NCBI GenBank assembly: GCA_902619925.1
Contig: CACNFY010000002.1
Coordinates: 62,001 to 126,000, forward strand
DNA length: 64,000 nt
Reading direction: 5' to 3'
Source of the DNA: an uncultured Pelagibacteraceae bacterium
GTDB taxonomy: Bacteria > Pseudomonadota > Alphaproteobacteria > Pelagibacterales > Pelagibacteraceae
Shown here in pieces: positions 3,670 to 14,497 of this stretch. The first letter of the stretch is position 1, and the number at the start of each line of letters is the position of its first letter. Position numbers and translations under genes: made by a program. The notes below the pieces were generated by a model, which made no database searches, was not told the origin of the DNA, and saw only the letters and a program-made list of their open reading frames with translations.

Positions 3670-5100
3670 TTGGGAGGCAATATTAACAATTCCGTCAATA
3701 CAGTATTGAATAAGCACCACAGCGTCTTGCAGGTGAATATAAAGACCCGGAGTATTAATTATGATTTCCATAATGACTCAAATTATCAAAAAAAAAGTAT
3801 AATTCCAAATACAAAAATGTTTTTTAAATCACAAAAAAATGAGCCAAACAAAGAAAATATAGCTTTAAATGAGGATTTGGCAATAATTACAAAAATGAAT
3901 CAAGAGTTTGCGACTTCTCTTGATTTAAAAGAAACTTTACAGACTGCTTTAGAAGTAATTATTAAAAGAATAGATGCACAAGCTGCAAATATTTTTCTAA
4001 TTGACGATAAAAAGAAAGTTTTCCAATGTATAGCATCAAAATATCAATCATATTTAGATGAGTATGAAATACCATTGACTCAAGGCGTTATGGGTAAAGC
4101 TGTTTTGCAAAAAAAGTGTATCAGAGTTGGTAATGTTAGAAAAGACGTACGAGAAATTGCAGAATTCTATTTTGATTTAGATAATAAAACTAATTTTACC
4201 ACTTATTCAGTTCTGTGTTCACCTCTAATAGCTTCAAATGAGTGTATCGGAGTAATTCATTGTCTAAATAAAAAAAGTAATTCAAAATTATTTGAAGAAG
4301 GTGACAGAAAATTATTAGAAACTTTGTCAGCACCCGCAGCTTTAGCTATCAGAAATGCTAAAATGGCAAAAGAATTAATTGACAAGAATAGAATTCAAAA
4401 AGAAATAGAAATTGTAGGTGAAATACAAAAAACTTTATTATCAAAAAATATAAAAGAAAATTTTCCAATAGCCGGAATAAATATTCCTGCAAAAATTGTA
4501 TCTGGTGACTTTTATAATTTTTCAGATCTTGGTGATGGTAAATTTGGTTTTGGTGTTGCTGATGTTTCGGGTAAAGGAATCAAGTCATCTTTGTTAATGT
4601 CAAAAGCATCTAGTTTGTATAGATGTCTTAGTAAAACAATTTATTCCGCTGCGGGATTACTAGAACTTTTAAATAAAGAAATTTGCGAGACAACTTCTCG
4701 TGGGATGTTTGTAACTATGCTTATTGGAATATACGATAGTAAAAAAAAAGAATTACTTTTATCAAATGCTGGTCATGAACCACCTTTAATCTATTTTAGC
4801 AACGGAAAATTTGAAAATCATACAGAAGCTGGACCTCCTTTAGGCATAATGTCTAAAATAAAGTACAAAGAAACAAAAATTAATTTTTCAAATTGTTCGA
4901 TGTATGTATTTACTGATGGCATTACAGAAATAAAAGACCCAAACGGTCAAATGTTAGGGGCAGATGGGTTTCAAAATTATGTTATTAAACATAAAGACAA
5001 GATAATTCATGAAAGATTGCAAATAATTGTTGAAGACATAATAAAATCTGGAAAAATTCAAAAAGATGACTTAACAATCTTAGTTGTTGACGGAAAATAG
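3670..5100 (+). CDS. GAF domain plus SpoIIE/PP2C-type serine phosphatase (RsbU-like); true start may be ATG near 3817
   Basis: GAF-like N-terminal half; SGDFYNF, GVADVSGKGIKSSLLMSKAS, NAGHEPPLIYF, FTDGITE, DDLTILVVD motifs; listed start is TTG. Confidence 0.85.
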   Translation: MGGNINNSVNTVLNKHHSVLQVNIKTRSINYDFHNDSNYQKKSIIPNTKMFFKSQKNEPNKENIALNEDLAIITKMNQEFATSLDLKETLQTALEVIIKRIDAQAANIFLIDDKKKVFQCIASKYQSYLDEYEIPLTQGVMGKAVLQKKCIRVGNVRKDVREIAEFYFDLDNKTNFTTYSVLCSPLIASNECIGVIHCLNKKSNSKLFEEGDRKLLETLSAPAALAIRNAKMAKELIDKNRIQKEIEIVGEIQKTLLSKNIKENFPIAGINIPAKIVSGDFYNFSDLGDGKFGFGVADVSGKGIKSSLLMSKASSLYRCLSKTIYSAAGLLELLNKEICETTSRGMFVTMLIGIYDSKKKELLLSNAGHEPPLIYFSNGKFENHTEAGPPLGIMSKIKYKETKINFSNCSMYVFTDGITEIKDPNGQMLGADGFQNYVIKHKDKIIHERLQIIVEDIIKSGKIQKDDLTILVVDGK

Positions 5101-5258
5101 TGAGGAATTTCAAATAATTTTGAATATTCTCTTAAAAATAGAAAAAAAAGATCAATTTACGGTTGTATAATTGCAATTATAATTTCATAAAAATAATTTA
5201 TTAAATATAAATGATTTCTAAAATAAAAAAACTTTATAAAAATTTTAATATCTTTAGA

Positions 5259-5572
5259 TTCTAACACAAAAAAAATAGCTCTAACACAAAAATATTAAAA
5301 AAAATTAAAAACTCAAAAAAGCTTGATTTTATTGGAATTTATAATTTTTTGAATTTTATATTAACTCTAACACAATAGGTAAATTTCTTTTGTGTTAGAG
5401 TTATCTTAATTAAGAAAAATTATTAAAATATTTTCATTTTTTCCTACTATGTAAAAAAAATAGCTATTTTGCTTAGTTTTTAACATAATTATATTTTTTT
5501 TCTCGTTTTAGTAAATATTATGTTGGACAATTTTGAATATTGTGTTAGAGTTTTATAAAAATTGTGTTAGAG
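5259..5572. repeat. Array of six CTCTAACACAA elements (3 forward: 5259-5269 with one mismatch, 5279-5289, 5365-5375; 3 reverse: 5390-5400, 5540-5550, 5562-5572)
   Basis: Direct reading; five perfect 11-mers plus one 10/11, all in the intergenic gap upstream of the pilus operon. Confidence 0.93.
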
Positions 5573-5594
5573 AAATTAAAATTTTGGAAAAAAA

Positions 5595-8060
5595 ATGGAC
5601 GATAAGGAAAAAGAAAAATTTGGAGTCATAATTGATAAAGAGAAGCAACCTGAGAGCGATCAACCAAAGGTTGATGAAAGTGTTCCTCGAGATCAAAATT
5701 TAACCTCAGGTAGTGAAGAATCTGAGGTCTTAGACGCAGAGAAGCCTGAAAACGAGAATTATCAGGAAAATATTAACGAAAAAGAAGAGATCAAAGTTGA
5801 AAACATAACAAATGAAAATATTTCAGTTTCTACAAAAGAAACTAATGATGAAAATTTAAATAATTTAAGCGAAGAAGATGATAAAAATAAAAATATCGAA
5901 AACATCACACATGAAGAAAAAAAAGATCATCAAGTCATTCATAAAAAAGATGGAAGATTACATATTTATGTTAGACAAGATAAGTATAAGGGAGAATTAA
6001 AATCAAAAAATTGGGTTGGAAGAATTTATTTAGATGGTAAACAAAAAATTTTCTCTTCAGGTACTCCAAATTTAGACGATGCTATTCCTATTTTAGAAAA
6101 GTGGTTTGACGATTTACACGCGCAAAAAGAAAAAGAAAAAAATAATAAAATTCAAAGTGATATCAAGGAAGAAATTAATATAGAAAAAAAACAAGAGGAA
6201 CAAAATAAAGAAACAACTCCTCCTTATGTAGACACAACATCGGTATCAACTTTAAATAATGAAAATTTAAAAGAAAATTTAGAGATTAATTCTCAAATTA
6301 ATCAAAAAAATTTAAATGAAGAAAAAAAATCAAATGTTGTAACAAGTTTGATAGACAAAATAAAAAATGTTAAAATAAAAAAACCTGAATTTGTTAAAAA
6401 AGACTCTGTTAAAATATCAGGTGGTAAATCAATAACAAATATTAAAAATAAACTTGGAGGTTTTTTCAAATCTAAAATTGGAAAATCATCTGTGCAAGGT
6501 GAAGAAATAGTTGGTGTCGAACTTACAAACAAAGAAATTAGACTTGCTCAAATTACATCAAACAAAGCTAATCAATGGATACTTGAAAAATTTTATATTC
6601 ATAAAGTTGATTTACCTGAAGATGCATCTGTTTTAGATAATGCTGATAAGATGGGTGAAGAATTATCTCTTGCAATACAAAAATCAAAAATCACAACACC
6701 TAATGCCGCGATTGCAATACCTGTTACTAGTGCAATAATTAGGGTCGTCACTGCACCGTTGATGAAAGATGAGGAATTACAAAAAGCAATAGACACTAAT
6801 TCTCTTTGGGAAAATTTAGTTCAATTGACTGATAATTTAGATGATTATTCAATATTTCATCAAGTGATAAATAAAAATGATAAAGAGAATACAATGGATA
6901 TTTTATTTGTTGCTTCGAAATTGGCAGATATAAATAATTATACATCAATTATAAAGAGGAGTAATTTAAACCCAGTTATAATTGATGTTAAATGTTTTGC
7001 ACTTAAATCGGCGGTTGACCAAATAAATCAAATTTCAAAAAATGCAGAAGATGCAAATTTGACTGCAGTATTAGAATTTGGATTAGATGAAAATTATTTA
7101 ATGATTTTGTATGAAAATAATCCAATAATCACAGACATTTTTATAAGAAATCAGGATAGGGATATTTTACAAAATTCTCAAAATCAAGAGGAAAAAGAAG
7201 CACTTGTAAGAAGATTTATAACTCAAGTAAAACAAGCTGTTCAAGATTTTGAAACAAAATACGAAAAAAGAATAAGAAACATTAAAGTTGTTTCTGATTT
7301 AAACAATGTTGATGATTATCTATCAACATTTAGAAAAAGTATGGTTAATGTAGGTTTCAACTTATTTGATCCAATTGATGGTCTACAAATCCCCCAACAA
7401 AACACCGAGGCAACAAATTTACAGAATAGATCTTATCTAGCTACAGTAATAGGATTAGCTTTTAGAAAATTAGATGTATTCGGTTATTATAAATTTGTAA
7501 CTGCAGTTAAAAATATAAATCTTCTTCCTGATAGAGCAGGAATGATTAAACAAAAAAAAATGAAAGCATTTTCTAAATTTGCTTTTAAAGGTGTAGCGGG
7601 TGCTGTTATTGCAATTTATACCTTATTGTTTGGTTTATCTTTTTGGCAAATTTATTCTTACAATGCAAAATTAAAAGATTATGACAAAATAATTAAAGAA
7701 CATAAAGTAAAAGAAAAACAGAAAAATAAATTTAGTAAAGAGTTGGGTGTTATGACTAAAACATTACAGCTCAGCAAAACTCTTAAATCTAATAAAAGTT
7801 TAAGTTACAGATATTTAGCACAAATTGCTATGAGCGTTCCTAAAAGAGTAAAATTCAATTCAATACAATATGACGGAAAAAAATCAATCATACTTAAAGG
7901 ATCTGCAGCAACTGATCAAGATATTTTAAAATTAATAAATAATTTAAATACTCAAAAACTAGTTAATCAAGCTTCTCTTGGTTCAATGAGTTTACCTAAA
8001 TCAAAAGCTGGTGCTAACAGTAAAAAAGGATTTCAAATTTTAGTAAAGGTTAAAGGATAA
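5595..8060 (+). CDS. Type IV pilus PilM-PilN fusion with long acidic N-terminal extension and small Arm/AP2-like beta domain
   Basis: PilM-like actin-fold segment from GEEIVGVELTNKEIRLAQI; then NINLLPDR, one TM, coiled coil and PilN-like C-terminal domain. Confidence 0.75.
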   Translation: MDDKEKEKFGVIIDKEKQPESDQPKVDESVPRDQNLTSGSEESEVLDAEKPENENYQENINEKEEIKVENITNENISVSTKETNDENLNNLSEEDDKNKNIENITHEEKKDHQVIHKKDGRLHIYVRQDKYKGELKSKNWVGRIYLDGKQKIFSSGTPNLDDAIPILEKWFDDLHAQKEKEKNNKIQSDIKEEINIEKKQEEQNKETTPPYVDTTSVSTLNNENLKENLEINSQINQKNLNEEKKSNVVTSLIDKIKNVKIKKPEFVKKDSVKISGGKSITNIKNKLGGFFKSKIGKSSVQGEEIVGVELTNKEIRLAQITSNKANQWILEKFYIHKVDLPEDASVLDNADKMGEELSLAIQKSKITTPNAAIAIPVTSAIIRVVTAPLMKDEELQKAIDTNSLWENLVQLTDNLDDYSIFHQVINKNDKENTMDILFVASKLADINNYTSIIKRSNLNPVIIDVKCFALKSAVDQINQISKNAEDANLTAVLEFGLDENYLMILYENNPIITDIFIRNQDRDILQNSQNQEEKEALVRRFITQVKQAVQDFETKYEKRIRNIKVVSDLNNVDDYLSTFRKSMVNVGFNLFDPIDGLQIPQQNTEATNLQNRSYLATVIGLAFRKLDVFGYYKFVTAVKNINLLPDRAGMIKQKKMKAFSKFAFKGVAGAVIAIYTLLFGLSFWQIYSYNAKLKDYDKIIKEHKVKEKQKNKFSKELGVMTKTLQLSKTLKSNKSLSYRYLAQIAMSVPKRVKFNSIQYDGKKSIILKGSAATDQDILKLINNLNTQKLVNQASLGSMSLPKSKAGANSKKGFQILVKVKG

Positions 8061-8065
8061 TTTTT

Positions 8066-8749
8066 ATGGATTTAAAAAATATTGATTTTAAGAATATAAA
8101 CCTAGATGAAATAAAATCTAAAATTTTAGCTATTGATAAAAAAATTCTTATAAAAATTGGAATTGGATTTGGCGCAATTATTTTTTTCTTAATAATTTAT
8201 TATGCAATTTTAAATCCGATAGTTGAAAAAAAGAAAGTTCAATTAGAGGACATGAATTTAAAAAAAGATGAAATAGTTAAATTCAATAAAGATATCAAAT
8301 CTATAAAAAAGAAAATAAAAAAAGTTAAGCCTGAATATGAAAATTATTCTACTTTATTTCACTCAAAAGCCGAGGTTGAAGGTCTTTACCAAACATTAAG
8401 TGAGTATGCTTCATTAAATGGATTAGTTATTTCGAGAATTTCAAAAGGAAAACCAACTGCAATCACCAAGTCATCATTAATGAATAAAAAGAAAAAAAAG
8501 AAGAAAAAGAGAAAGAAAAAGAAGAAACAAGACACCAAAAAAAGTATTGCTTATTACAGGATACCAGTAAGCTTTGAAATAAAGGGGAATTTCATTGGAT
8601 ATATCAAGTTTAAAAGACAAGTCTCTTTATCAAAGAAGATGTTAAACTTTGACAAAGAATCAATAAAAGTGCTAAAAGGGAGCACAACTAACGCGATAGT
8701 TGTAAAAGGTATATTAACGATAGTGGGGTTACCAGATGAGTTTTTTTAA
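8066..8749 (+). CDS. pilO: PilO-like pilus assembly protein with lysine-rich insertion
   Basis: Single N-terminal TM, coiled coil, position between PilMN and PilP; KKKKKKKKRKKKKKQ tract. Confidence 0.65.
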   Translation: MDLKNIDFKNINLDEIKSKILAIDKKILIKIGIGFGAIIFFLIIYYAILNPIVEKKKVQLEDMNLKKDEIVKFNKDIKSIKKKIKKVKPEYENYSTLFHSKAEVEGLYQTLSEYASLNGLVISRISKGKPTAITKSSLMNKKKKKKKKRKKKKKQDTKKSIAYYRIPVSFEIKGNFIGYIKFKRQVSLSKKMLNFDKESIKVLKGSTTNAIVVKGILTIVGLPDEFF

Positions 8750-9239
8750 AATTACTCTTTTGACTTTATTATTAGTCTCTTTAAGTAAAATTGGCTTAGC
8801 AGACAGCCATGATCAGCAAAAAAATATTTTAGATCAAGCAAAAGAGATAAATGAGGAAATAAACAAAAAACAATCTTCGACACAAGCTAATATTTCATCT
8901 GAGATTGGTGAAAATGACGAAGAACCTTTGCCACTAAATGATCCTTTCGCTGGAGATGACGGAACGGCAAGTAAAATAGTCTCTGATGTAACAGTAGAAA
9001 AAGAACTAGTAAATTTGAGTAAATACAAATTAGTTGGAGTTTTTAATGGAGCTATAAAATCATTTGCAACTTTTGTAGACGAAGGTGGAGAATTTATAAC
9101 CCTTGAAATAGAAGAAGAATTATCGAATGGACTAAAATTAGTTGACGTTAATATAAAAGAGGCAATTTTTCAAAAGGGTGAAAATAGTTTTGTATCCTTA
9201 AATTTTAAAAACCAAATTAGAGAAAGAGATGAATTTTAA
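8736..9239 (+). CDS. pilP: PilP-like pilus assembly protein
   Basis: Signal peptide, DPF-type motif, YKLVGVFNG...ATF strand pattern, position before secretin. Confidence 0.6.
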   Translation: MSFFKITLLTLLLVSLSKIGLADSHDQQKNILDQAKEINEEINKKQSSTQANISSEIGENDEEPLPLNDPFAGDDGTASKIVSDVTVEKELVNLSKYKLVGVFNGAIKSFATFVDEGGEFITLEIEEELSNGLKLVDVNIKEAIFQKGENSFVSLNFKNQIRERDEF

Positions 9240-10764
9240 ATTTTACAAGTTTTTTGTACCAATTATTTTATTATCAGCACTTCTTAACGGTTGTACAGCT
9301 GATGGAAAGTTTAAGAGTGGTACTTTTAAACATGATACACCTCTAATAAAAGAAGATATTCGAAAAACTGGAAAAGAAACTGTTGACGAGACAGTTGAGT
9401 TAGGACCGCAGCCTATTGAAGGAGACATTATTAAACTCGGTAAAAGAAAACAAATTTCATCTACAAAAAAAAGAAATTATCTTTTAATTCCAGATAGCTA
9501 TACATCTTTAAAGCAAAATGTTTCGTTTAAGTTCCAAAATCTTGACTATAAGGAAGCAATGAATTTAATGGCTCAAATAGGAGAGATAAATATTTTAGTA
9601 GGGGAGGAAGTAGCTGGATCAATAAATGCACAATTAGTTGACGTACCTTGGGATAAAGCATTCAATGCTATCTTAGATCTTAAAAACTTTGCTGCAGACT
9701 TTGATGTATCAAGTAATCTTATTAGAGTTCACTCTCCATCGAACTTAACTGCTCAAGAGAGCACTAAATCAGCTAGGGCTTCTGCCGTTAAGAAAAAAGT
9801 AGAGTTAGAAGATTCGGTCGAGCCAATAATTTCCGAAATTTTCCGTCTTTATTATATAAGCCCAGCAGAGGCGAAAACTACTTTGACTGAACTTTTTGCA
9901 TCCATAGACGATAATTTAACACCAATAAAAATTACCGAAGAGAAAACTACAAGATCTATTATTGTAAGAGGAAAAGAAGCAGACTTAGATATTGTCGATA
10001 AAATAATTAAAGAAATTGATGTAAGAACTAAACAAGTTTTAATAGAGGCGTTTATTGTTGAGGCTAACTCAGACTTTGAAAGAGCACTAGGCACAAGACT
10101 AGGAGGATATTATAATAGACAAGGTAGAATAATCGGAGGTGTTCAAGGTGCAAGTACAGGAGATGGTCCAGCAAACGCGGGAACAGCAGTTCTTGGTGCA
10201 GCGACAGATAGCATAACAGATTTTTCAGCTGCAGGAGCAACTAGTGGTATAGGAATATTAAAAAAGACAGGTTCTGCAGTTCTTAAAGCAGAAATAACAG
10301 CATTAGAATCTCAGGGGTTGGGTAAAACAATCTCAAATCCCAAGGTTTTTACTTTAGATAATCAGGTAGCAACAATTACACAAGGTGAGGAAATTCCTTA
10401 CGCGTCATCTTCAGCTGAGGGAGCTGATACATCATTTAAAGAGGCTGCTTTAAAAATGACAGTTACACCAAGTATAATTGGTGATGGAAATGTACTTTTA
10501 AATATTCAAGTTAACAATGATACACCAAATAGATCAAATGCTGGTGATCCTGCGATTAACAAGATGGAGATAAGCACTAAATTGTTGGTTGCCGATGGAG
10601 ACATTGTTGTAATTGGTGGTATTAAGAAAAATTCAGTATCCAATAGCAAACAACAATTACCCGGTGTAGGAGATGCTCCTGTTTTAGGAAATTTGTTTAA
10701 AGGAAAGTCAAAAGCTGATAGCTTAGATGAATTATTAGTTTTTATAGCACCAAGAGTTTTATAA
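9229..10764 (+). CDS. pilQ: Type IV pilus/type II secretin (PilQ/MshL family)
   Basis: Lipoprotein-like leader LLNGC; KQVLIEAFIVEAN; ISNPKVFTLDNQVATITQGEEIPY; VIGGIKKN...PGVGDAPVLGNLFK; LLVFIAPRVL. Confidence 0.92.
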   Translation: MNFKFYKFFVPIILLSALLNGCTADGKFKSGTFKHDTPLIKEDIRKTGKETVDETVELGPQPIEGDIIKLGKRKQISSTKKRNYLLIPDSYTSLKQNVSFKFQNLDYKEAMNLMAQIGEINILVGEEVAGSINAQLVDVPWDKAFNAILDLKNFAADFDVSSNLIRVHSPSNLTAQESTKSARASAVKKKVELEDSVEPIISEIFRLYYISPAEAKTTLTELFASIDDNLTPIKITEEKTTRSIIVRGKEADLDIVDKIIKEIDVRTKQVLIEAFIVEANSDFERALGTRLGGYYNRQGRIIGGVQGASTGDGPANAGTAVLGAATDSITDFSAAGATSGIGILKKTGSAVLKAEITALESQGLGKTISNPKVFTLDNQVATITQGEEIPYASSSAEGADTSFKEAALKMTVTPSIIGDGNVLLNIQVNNDTPNRSNAGDPAINKMEISTKLLVADGDIVVIGGIKKNSVSNSKQQLPGVGDAPVLGNLFKGKSKADSLDELLVFIAPRVL

Positions 10765-10765
10765 A

Positions 10766-12523
10766 ATGTTGAAGATTAGTAGAGAAAGTGAAATAAATCT
10801 TATTAATGTCCTTATAGATAATGACATAATTTCAGGAAAAGATTTAATCAATATAAAAAAAATAAGTACAGAGGGAAATAAATCACAAATAGATGCGGTC
10901 TTTGAATTAAAATTAACAGACGAAAAGCAAATTGTAGACGTATTGGTTAAAGAACAAAGTTTAGAAATAGTTGATTTAAATAAATTTGATATCACAGATG
11001 AAATAAAATCTGTTCTACCATCAAATTATATAAACGTAAATTTTGTTGCTCCTTTTAAAGTTGAGGGTAATACACTACACATAGCTATTTCAGATAGTTC
11101 AAAATTGGGTTTAATGAGAAATTTGAAAGCTATTACAAAAAAAAATATTGAACTTCATGCAGCGAAAGTGTCTGACATATCGAAATTTATAGATAAACTT
11201 TTAAGTGAAAGTGGTGATGTAACAACTGCAACTATTAGAAAAGATAATCAGGAGCGAGAAAAAACAAAAACTTTTGACTCTGACCTTGGTGAAGCTGGAG
11301 AAGTTTTAGATAAAAAGCCAGAGGAAGAAATAGAAGCAATTGAAAATGAATCTGAAGTAATTAAGTTTAGTACTGCCGTTGTTGCAGAAGCTATTAAATT
11401 AGGCGTCAGCGATATTCACATTGAGCCTTACAGATTTTCATCAAGAGTTAGGTATAGGTTAGATGGAATGTTACAAGAACAAGATCAATACCAAAAATTC
11501 TTACATGATAATTATAGCGCAGTAGTAACTCGATTCAAAATAATGGGTAAATTAGATATTGCTGAAAGAAGATTGCCTCAGGATGGAGCAATCAATTTTA
11601 AAATTGAGGGTAAAGTTGTAGATTTACGTCTTTCAATTTTGCCAACTGCAAACAACGAGAGAATTGTAATGCGTATTTTAAATAAAGACGCAGGAGATAT
11701 AACACTTGAACAATTAAATTTTGATGACTCTGATTTGAAAAATCTTAGAAAAGCAATTCATAGCACTCAAGGATTGGTACTTGTAACTGGCCCAACTGGA
11801 TCAGGGAAAACTACAACTTTGTATAGTATCTTAAAAGAGGTTAGCAAACCTCATCTAAATATTTTAACAGCTGAGGATCCAGTTGAATATGAATTGGATG
11901 GTGTTGGACAAGTTCAAATCAAAGATGACATAGGATTAAATTTTGCAGCCGCATTAAGATCTTTTTTACGTCAAGACCCAGAGATTATTCTTGTTGGGGA
12001 AATGAGAGATAAAGAGACAGTAGATATTGGTTTAAAAGCTGCTCTAACAGGTCACTTAGTTTTTAGCACTCTTCATACTAATGATGCACCAAGTACTATT
12101 ACAAGACTACAAAACATGGGAACACCAGACTATTTAATTAGCGCAGCATGTACTTTAGTATTAGCGCAGAGACTCGCTAGAAAGTCATGTAAAGATTGCA
12201 GAGTTCCTGACGAAGACGTAAATCCAAAAGTTTTAACTGATCTTGGTTTTACTCCTGAACATGCATCAAGAGTTAAGGCTCAAAAAGGAAAAGGTTGTCC
12301 AAAATGTAAAGATACTGGTTTTAAGGGTAGAATGGGTATCTACGAAGTTTTAAATGTAACGAAGCCTATAAAAGAGGCTATATTAAAAAAAGCTACCACT
12401 CCTGAACTAAAAGAAATTGCAAGCAAAGAAGGTTTTCAAACTATGGCTGACATGGGTAGGAAAATGATAGCTGCTGGTGATCTAAATTTTAGAGAGTTTG
12501 AGCGGGTATTATCAAGTTCATAA
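10766..12523 (+). CDS. pilB: Type IV pilus assembly ATPase (PilB/GspE/MshE family)
   Basis: Walker A GPTGSGKTTTLYS; LTAEDPVEYELDGVGQVQI; LRQDPEIILVGEMRD; CKDC...CPKC zinc motif. Confidence 0.95.
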   Translation: MLKISRESEINLINVLIDNDIISGKDLINIKKISTEGNKSQIDAVFELKLTDEKQIVDVLVKEQSLEIVDLNKFDITDEIKSVLPSNYINVNFVAPFKVEGNTLHIAISDSSKLGLMRNLKAITKKNIELHAAKVSDISKFIDKLLSESGDVTTATIRKDNQEREKTKTFDSDLGEAGEVLDKKPEEEIEAIENESEVIKFSTAVVAEAIKLGVSDIHIEPYRFSSRVRYRLDGMLQEQDQYQKFLHDNYSAVVTRFKIMGKLDIAERRLPQDGAINFKIEGKVVDLRLSILPTANNERIVMRILNKDAGDITLEQLNFDDSDLKNLRKAIHSTQGLVLVTGPTGSGKTTTLYSILKEVSKPHLNILTAEDPVEYELDGVGQVQIKDDIGLNFAAALRSFLRQDPEIILVGEMRDKETVDIGLKAALTGHLVFSTLHTNDAPSTITRLQNMGTPDYLISAACTLVLAQRLARKSCKDCRVPDEDVNPKVLTDLGFTPEHASRVKAQKGKGCPKCKDTGFKGRMGIYEVLNVTKPIKEAILKKATTPELKEIASKEGFQTMADMGRKMIAAGDLNFREFERVLSSS

Positions 12524-12528
12524 AATTT

Positions 12529-13764
12529 ATGGATGTATTTACATACAAAGGAATTTCCGCTGGTAAATATGTAGAGGGTGAAATTGAGGCTTTAAATCAA
12601 GATGAAGCATCCCATAAGCTTAAAGAACAAAAGATCATAATAACAAATTTAGTTAAGGGTAAGAAAAAAAAAGATGCTAAAAAAGAAAAGGCAAAAGGCC
12701 AGGGATTTACTCTATTTAAGAAAAAAGTAAAACCAGAAGACCTAGTTGTTTTTTCAAAGCAGTTTGCAACAATGGTCAAAGCGGGCCTTCCTATTTTAAA
12801 TGTTCTAGAAATGTTAAGGGATCAAGTAGAAAACCCTGCAATGAGGGATGTAGTCGAGGACATAAGAAAAAGTTTAGAAGGGGGTGTCTCATTATCAAAA
12901 TCTTTTGAAAAATACCCCAATTTATTTGACAATGTATACGTAAATTTAGTCAAAGCCGGGGAGGCTAGTGGTAAGTTAGATGTTTTTCTTCTTAAAATAG
13001 TTGATGCATTAGAAAAGAGAGAAAAAATTAAGAAAAAAATTAAAAGTGCTCTTATGTATCCGAGTATTATGTTCACGGTAGCTATTACTGTAAGTGCTTT
13101 CATGTTAGTTAAAGTAGTTCCTGTTTTTGCGAAAATGTATGATGGTATGGGCATAGCATTACCTAAACCTACTGCAATAATTTTAGGAATGAGTGATTTT
13201 TTAAGAGGTACTGGAGGAATGATAATGCTTATCTCTATTATTTTATTTGTTGTAATCTTTAGATATTTAACAACTAAAAATCCAGCTATACAGTACAAAT
13301 GGCATAGACAGGTTTTAAGATTACCAGTTTTCGGCGATTTAATTTTAAAGTCACTTATTGCAAGAATTTCATTAATACTTGGTAATCTAAGTGCAGCTGG
13401 AGTAAATTTATTAGAAAGTTTAGATATTGCTAAATCAGTTAGCAATAATGTAGTTGTTACCGAAGCAATCGATAATATTAAAAAAGGAGTTTTCTCTGGA
13501 GAAACTTTAACTAAACTTTTTTTAAAAGAGCCATTGTTTCCCCCAACATTTAGTCAATTAATTTCAGTTGGAGAACAAACTGGACAACTAGATGAGATGT
13601 TTAACTCAGTTGCAATGTATTATGAGGAAGAGTTTGATGGAGCAGTAGATAATATGTCTAGTCTGATAGAACCAATAATGATTGTATTTATGGGTTTAAT
13701 GATTGGTGGTTTAATGATTGCAATGTACTCACCAATATTCAATGTTGGCGCATTGATAAACTAA
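12529..13764 (+). CDS. pilC: Type IV pilus inner-membrane platform protein (PilC/GspF)
   Basis: FSKQFATMVKAGLPIL; SAAGVNLLESL; LISVGEQTGQLDEMF; GSPF-family TM layout. Confidence 0.93.
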   Translation: MDVFTYKGISAGKYVEGEIEALNQDEASHKLKEQKIIITNLVKGKKKKDAKKEKAKGQGFTLFKKKVKPEDLVVFSKQFATMVKAGLPILNVLEMLRDQVENPAMRDVVEDIRKSLEGGVSLSKSFEKYPNLFDNVYVNLVKAGEASGKLDVFLLKIVDALEKREKIKKKIKSALMYPSIMFTVAITVSAFMLVKVVPVFAKMYDGMGIALPKPTAIILGMSDFLRGTGGMIMLISIILFVVIFRYLTTKNPAIQYKWHRQVLRLPVFGDLILKSLIARISLILGNLSAAGVNLLESLDIAKSVSNNVVVTEAIDNIKKGVFSGETLTKLFLKEPLFPPTFSQLISVGEQTGQLDEMFNSVAMYYEEEFDGAVDNMSSLIEPIMIVFMGLMIGGLMIAMYSPIFNVGALIN

Positions 13765-14177
13765 ATTATTTTTTTTGTTAAGACTAAATGATTTACCCAA
13801 CCTTTTTCGTCTTTTTTAAATACAGCTGCATCCATAATTTGCTTTATAAAAAAAGTTCCTAAACCACCAGGTTTAATATCATCTAGTTTTCTATGCTGAA
13901 CATTTTCAGGTACGACTGCTTTACCTTTATCAAAAAAACCTATTTCTAATTCTGAATCTTTCATTGAAATTTTAATCTGCATTTTATCTGTTGTGCTATC
14001 TACACCTTTATATCCATGTTTAACTATATTTTGTGCTGCTTCAGCAATTGCTAAAACTAATTCATCTTTTAATTCCTGCTCGAGTTTTAATTTTTCAAAT
14101 ACTTCTCTAGAAAAAACTCTAACTTCTTTCAAGCTTCCAGTGCTAACTAAAAAATCTTTTGATTCTTCTATATTCAT
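13761..14177 (-). CDS. HATPase_c serine kinase / anti-sigma-factor-like (RsbW-like)
   Basis: N box AIAEAAQNIVKHGY; G box GGLGTFFIKQIMD. Confidence 0.85.
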   Translation of the reverse strand: MNIEESKDFLVSTGSLKEVRVFSREVFEKLKLEQELKDELVLAIAEAAQNIVKHGYKGVDSTTDKMQIKISMKDSELEIGFFDKGKAVVPENVQHRKLDDIKPGGLGTFFIKQIMDAAVFKKDEKGWVNHLVLTKKII

Positions 14178-14497
14178 TATTCAAGGTTAAGTATCTGCTC
14201 AAGTTTTGCCATCATAATAACTTTTAAAACAGATTTACTTACTTCTTTTACGATCACTTTATTTCCTTTTTCTAATGCTTGTTGGTGACTTTCAATAAGA
14301 ACTGAAATTCCAGAAGAGTCCATATAACTTACATCTTTGAGATTTAAATGTACCTCTTTACCAGCCTCAATAAGTGGTAAAATGACTTCTTTAGCACTCT
14401 CAGTAACGTCCATGTCAATTTCACCATTTAAAAAGACAGTGCTAATATTTCCTTCTTCAGTTACTTTATATGTCATAGATGAATAAACAAATATCAC
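14177..14497 (-). CDS. STAS domain anti-anti-sigma factor (RsbV-like); start may be a little downstream at MTYKV
   Basis: STAS core VHLNLKDVSYMDSSGISVLIE with phosphorylatable Ser. Confidence 0.88.
   Translation of the reverse strand: MIFVYSSMTYKVTEEGNISTVFLNGEIDMDVTESAKEVILPLIEAGKEVHLNLKDVSYMDSSGISVLIESHQQALEKGNKVIVKEVSKSVLKVIMMAKLEQILNLE

Follow-up and report, generated by a model that had tools for sequence, protein, structure and literature searches.

An array of 11-bp sites upstream of pilMN in SAR11 bacteria as a probable operator of PilMN, presumably read through a domain shared with tyrosine-recombinase integrases

What reads the array of short repeats that precedes the pilMN gene in the 64-kb stretch of SAR11 DNA analysed here (the window), and what does it do there? 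The repeats lie in a 494-bp gap between the stop codon of a GAF-SpoIIE phosphatase gene (position 5100) and the ATG of pilMN (5595). A sequence-only reading of this DNA had described six copies and taken them for an operator to which an unidentified regulator would bind cooperatively, with looping of the DNA. The six copies are where it placed them, five of them exact and the first with one mismatch, and both the length of the gap and the 22-bp distance from the last copy to the start codon were right; the count itself needs amending since a degenerate seventh site was overlooked (Table 1). Close relatives carry TTGTGTTGGACA or TTGTGTTAGAC at the matching position. A chance repeat can be dismissed as the origin of the array. 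When the gap was shuffled 20,000 times by a first-order Markov model, the mean count of the 11-mer was 0.0001 and the maximum one, against five exact copies observed; pure A/T words aside, no 11-mer exceeded three occurrences in 3,000 shuffles. The source assembly of the window (1.10 Mb, 89% complete) holds one exact copy outside the array, at C4:11624 within a 533-aa ORF; at up to one mismatch there are 30 copies, the array counted in, versus 21 for the reversed control.

Table 1. Coordinates of the array, its sites and the surrounding genes in the window, and of phage proteins carrying the same domain
Feature	Position	Strand	Remarks
Autotransporter, 712 aa	761..2899		beta-propeller-like passenger; beside pilus genes
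GAF-SpoIIE phosphatase	3670..5100	+	upstream neighbour of the array
Intergenic region with candidate operator array, 494 bp	5101..5594	.	upstream of the pilMN-led operon
Site F1	5259..5269	+	TTCTAACACAA, one mismatch
Site F2	5279..5289	+	CTCTAACACAA
Site F3	5365..5375	+	86 bp (8 x 10.7) from F2
Site R1	5390..5400	-	inverted relative to F3, 25 bp start to start
Degenerate seventh site	5518..5528	-	TTATGTTGGAC; 128 bp from R1, 22 bp before the 5540 copy
Site R3	5540..5550	-	CTCTAACACAA on the minus strand
Site R4	5562..5572	-	ends 22 bp before the PilMN ATG
pilMN fusion gene, 821 aa	5595..8060	+	PilM_2, PilN and TIGR01175 matches
PilMN domain of ~57 residues, aa 120-175	5952..6119	+	candidate array reader; homology to integrase N-terminal domain
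PilO, PilP-like, PilQ secretin, PilB-type ATPase, PilC-type platform protein	8066..13764	+	rest of the presumed operon
PilO	8066..8749		long lysine/arginine run
HATPase_c_2 kinase-like and STAS proteins	13761..14177, 14177..14497		within the pilus cluster
Phage proteins with the domain, 112-116 aa	L260:4992-5339, L261:4992-5339, L262:1828-2178, L263:4992-5342, L264:1078-1416		C-terminal transmembrane helix

The names of the operon genes beyond PilO were assigned from sequence and gene order, and the small pilus protein is called PilP-like by its position. The locus also holds autotransporter, prepilin peptidase, STAS, kinase-like and pseudopilin-like genes. Within this cluster the GAF-SpoIIE, HATPase_c_2 kinase-like and STAS trio looks like a partner-switching signalling module. 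The lysine/arginine run of PilO, KKKKKKKKRKKKKK, is unusual in a pilus assembly protein. The autotransporter recalls the larger autotransporter adhesin that a 2025 study places beside the type IV pilus genes of coastal SAR11 (PMC12636525); the two are not equated here because the adhesin gene (~5,000 to 9,500 bp) is much larger.

The array is confined to a single place. The tandem pattern TCTAACACAN(9-14)TCTAACACA was found in 42 of 201 congener genomes, at one locus each, while its reversed control had no match in the same 201 genomes. Many of the genomes used are incomplete single-cell assemblies, and the array is likewise at one locus in eight genomes that are 94-100% complete. In all 30 array loci fetched it is adjoined by pilMN. 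Other genera of the Pelagibacteraceae have it too, and near-identical PilMN domains occur in named relatives, all of them Pelagibacteraceae (SAR11). Two observations had been named in advance as speaking against an operator, random scatter of the motif and its absence upstream of orthologous pilus operons. Neither was made: the motif keeps to one locus per genome and is retained before pilMN in many relatives. The array nevertheless does not characterize SAR11 pilus operons in general, because relatives with a PilMN of another type, which lacks the domain described below, are also without the array. Its single locus rules out a genome-wide regulon, and it does not have the many scattered copies of a DNA uptake sequence of competence pili. 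A centromere of the ParB/parS type should lie near parB, and in three genomes ParB is ~181-295 kb off in contig coordinates. Nor does the array belong to the GAF-SpoIIE phosphatase gene, since it accompanies pilMN also at loci with another upstream gene.

The 82 distinct arrays, most of which hold 7-9 sites, share the motif (C)TCTAACACAA, in which TCTAACACA hardly varies; beyond the 11-mer almost nothing is conserved. The distances between neighbouring sites are not arbitrary. For sites in the same orientation they cluster at 11, 21-22, 32, 51-53, 86, 118, 128 and 139 bp, and inverted neighbours follow one-turn steps both when they face each other (15, 25-26 and 35-36 bp) and when they stand back to back (16 and 26-27 bp). 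With each spacing class used once by its centre and the period fitted in the simulations too, the best-fit period of the same-orientation spacings was 10.7 bp (p = 0.008, phase offset 0.07 bp). Variants of a spacing thus tend to be an integral number of helical turns apart, the pattern to be expected if proteins are bound along one face of the DNA. Together, the single locus per genome, the retention upstream of orthologous pilMN and the helical-repeat spacing support the operator array that the sequence-only reading had postulated.

The best candidate for the protein that reads this array is encoded by the adjoining gene. PilMN, a pilus-assembly protein of the inner membrane, consists of a low-complexity N-terminal extension, an arm-binding-like domain, a linker, PilM and PilN, with one strong transmembrane segment at aa ~663-684. 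It is known of PilN that the part before its transmembrane segment is cytoplasmic, and by analogy the region of PilMN preceding the segment, including the domain, should be cytoplasmic as well. Two forms of the protein occur, a long form of ~700-850 aa, in which the compact domain lies inside the low-complexity extension, and a short form of ~570 aa. The domain is the most conserved part of PilMN, with a mean identity of 86% (aa 113-178); the segments on either side reach 19% and 29%, and the PilM/PilN core 72%. Its AlphaFold model (mean pLDDT 84.7) comprises three beta strands (22-31, 34-46, 49-54) and one helix (60-76). The arm-binding domains of Tn916-type tyrosine recombinases are likewise built from three beta strands and one alpha helix (PMC8138268), and the modelled PilMN domain has this composition. 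The domain has no Pfam match and no PDB sequence match, and a Foldseek search against PDB and BFVD folds gave none at E<=0.001; the weak viral matches included some integrases and homing endonucleases. We did not find it outside the Pelagibacteraceae in 226 genomes sampled from the class, nor did we find the domain, the site or their arrangement described in the open-licence papers that were searched.

Domain and array go together. Among the 201 genomes the domain is present in 44, including all 42 with the array; of the two others, one (G175) shows the motif in a degenerate array, and in the second (G146) the domain is part of an integrase. A PilMN core is found in 77 of these genomes, ~35 of which are without the domain, and none of the latter has tandem sites. 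At all loci examined, at least two upstream sites precede 114 of 115 domain-bearing PilMN ORFs, the exception (L240) having a disrupted start region, and PilMN genes lacking the domain lack the array apart from L246, where a broken frame splits the domain from the core. On a tree of 75 PilMN cores the domain changes three times and the array three times, in step. Divergent long forms (52% core identity) retain both features and short forms (~70%) have neither; a long form nested among short forms (L210) carries domain and array. This co-occurrence rests on two to three independent transitions, and linked inheritance could explain part of it. As domain and array are neighbours, it is by itself no proof of binding.

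A separate line of evidence is that the only other SAR11 proteins found with the domain are tyrosine-recombinase integrases, which have it at their N terminus. Three were found, in G146 and, from a family-wide search, in G369 and G417. The G146 integrase, a 423-aa protein encoded at a tRNA-Leu gene, has a Phage_integrase Pfam match (E 9.7e-8), its relative in G369 matches a PHROG integrase family, and the N terminus of the G146 protein is 54% identical to the PilMN domain of the window. Judged by sequence, the PilMN domain is homologous to the N-terminal domain of real integrases. When 8-mers were counted de novo in the flanks of the three integrases, with the pilus motif not used, TTACACAA, CTTACACA and ACTCTTAC were among the four most repeated, and the most frequent word of all is part of CTCTTACACAA. 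The three words stem from copies of CTCTTACACAA, one base from the pilus motif CTCTAACACAA, located just upstream of the integrase and beyond the tRNA on the other side, a placement that looks like that of integrase arm-type sites and makes them putative arm sites. Scored with a PWM of the pilus motif, the best sites in the integrase flanks reached 13.3-13.6 bits, which is unmatched in the 64-kb window outside the array. The integrases are 69-87% identical to one another and their flanking DNA is partly homologous, so they do not count as three independent cases. A search for further domain-bearing integrases in 399 genus genomes recovered only that of G146, and neither 50,697 phage records nor viral contigs yielded a match to the integrase.

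The three integrases (at L131, L266 and L267 in G146, G369 and G417, respectively) belong to integrated elements at tRNA-Leu with the order 5′ tRNA fragment, domain-bearing tyrosine recombinase, complete tRNA-Leu(CAA), arm-like repeats and serine recombinase-like gene. The domain is also encoded on IMG/VR phage contigs, in a small protein in which it is followed by a C-terminal transmembrane helix (Table 1). This protein, which has ribonucleotide reductase-like and glutaredoxin-like genes among its neighbours, might represent a second membrane-tethered use of the domain; the contigs contain few TCTWACACA sites.

We propose, with a probability of about 0.72, that the array is the operator of PilMN, which would bind it through an exapted integrase arm-binding domain and most likely autorepress the pilus operon. 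The operator idea of the earlier reading is supported, and its unidentified regulator is probably the first protein of the operon itself, acting through its N-terminal domain; direct control of the gene by the pilus machine that it helps to build is therefore probable. In this model, the cytoplasmic N-terminal region of PilMN would have acquired the arm-binding domain from the tyrosine recombinase of a mobile element, and the domain would read CTCTAACACAA, which is almost identical to the integrase's own arm-like CTCTTACACAA. The ~seven helically phased sites fall into a distant upstream cluster and a second one immediately ahead of the start codon, and several PilMN molecules could bind one face of the DNA and bridge both. 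A free or unassembled pool of PilMN may be the trigger of this negative autoregulation. The sites adjoin the gene of the putative regulator and are found nowhere else, as autoregulation predicts. The proximal cluster lies within ~75 bp of the ATG and the upstream cluster ~130-300 bp away, in phase. A conserved TTGACC plus TATAAT-like block ends, in many relatives, just before the ATG-proximal sites; the block is poorly kept in the window. Our guess from its position is that the proximal cluster coincides with the transcription start and the bases that directly follow it. For integrases, repression of the own gene through arm sites that overlap the promoter is documented (PMC2951348). Because of this precedent, the position of the proximal cluster at the putative start and the phasing of the upstream cluster, we favour cooperative binding, a loop and negative autoregulation. 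We infer the physical binding, the sign of the regulation, the looping and the response to the assembly state.

Between the clusters some relatives (e.g. L058, L060, L253 and L197) contain conserved blocks resembling TTGATTTTAYTKACTTTTTT, often twice, and next to the proximal sites of the same loci TTGACCYAWAATGRNCAY is followed by a TATAAT-like word. In some genomes the TTGACCYAWAATGRNCAY block is palindromic (TGACC-N6-GGTCA), perhaps the site of a second regulator.

PilMN could also bind the array for another purpose, mainly to tether the operon DNA to the membrane at the pilus machine, with local transcription, translation and assembly, or to activate rather than repress. Its membrane anchor would suit such a role, as would the size of the arrays, which exceeds the need of simple repression, and a C-terminal transmembrane helix is also present in the phage protein that shares the domain. 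However, the proximal cluster is close to where RNA polymerase acts, and the integrase precedent points to repression (PMC2951348); we regard tethering or activation as unlikely. A separate transcription factor could instead bind the array, the PilMN domain merely sharing its distribution. Co-inheritance is indeed expected of physically linked elements, and the neighbouring GAF-SpoIIE, STAS and kinase-like genes are evidence of further regulators at the locus. Against this, integrases at unlinked loci combine the same domain with near-identical flanking sites, the array remains with pilMN when its upstream neighbour changes, and a regulon of one locus suggests a locally encoded regulator, all of which makes a separate factor distinctly unlikely.

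It is very improbable that the repeats are functionless relics or targets of a mobile element, that is, an att/arm region captured along with the integrase N terminus. The match between the sites and the arm-like sites of the integrases would be explained, but sites, helical spacing and domain have been kept across deeply diverged PilMN lineages, in which drift is seen in the DNA that separates the sites and in the protein segments next to the domain, and this bears the mark of purifying selection. The sequence-only reading had further considered that copies five and six, if transcribed, might serve in the 5′ UTR. Although the last two or three reverse copies may be transcribed, upstream copies occur in both orientations and the spacings, including the one-turn steps, track the helical repeat of DNA; because of the latter we favour a DNA operator, and a role as RNA elements is scarcely credible.

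ToxR, CadC and TcpP are membrane-anchored one-component regulators with winged-helix domains and dedicated sensors. PilMN resembles them in that a single chain unites a putative DNA-binding domain, N-terminal and cytoplasmic, with a transmembrane anchor, but this chain belongs to the structure of the type IV pilus machine. With the PilM and PilN of type IV pili it shares the PilM_2 and PilN domains and the gene order PilMN, PilO, PilP-like, PilQ; it differs from them by the fusion of the two proteins and by the extra DNA-binding-type domain near the N terminus. A close regulatory parallel is offered by autoregulated integrases such as KplE1 IntS (PMC2951348), with arm-type sites near their own promoter, an N-terminal arm-binding domain and a negative autoregulation that was shown for IntS and is proposed here for PilMN. 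In contrast to IntS, the PilMN domain is fused to a pilus assembly protein without a recombinase part, there is no att core, and the array comprises seven or more helically phased sites over ~300 bp. The three beta strands and one helix of the Tn916-type arm-binding domains (PMC8138268) recur in the model of the PilMN domain, and in SAR11 integrases, too, the domain is N-terminal and repeated sites flank the integration region; unlike the Tn916-type domains, that of SAR11 is without a Pfam or PDB sequence match and most of the copies found are in PilMN, not in recombinases.

It is a rather doubtful extension of our model that the PilMN platform, anchored in the membrane, physically holds its own operon by gripping the helically phased array of integrase-type sites, which would couple the assembly state to transcription and place the pilus genes at the machine. 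In that case a structural component would, through a DNA-binding domain of mobile-element origin, have become a regulator and a tether for specific DNA sites. The present data provide a specific candidate protein-site pair for pilus regulation in SAR11 that is testable in vitro, and a putative 11-bp recognition code for the domain in two contexts. If the model is true, it would clearly exemplify how a cell-surface machine can recruit the DNA-binding domain of an integrase along with the sites that this domain binds.
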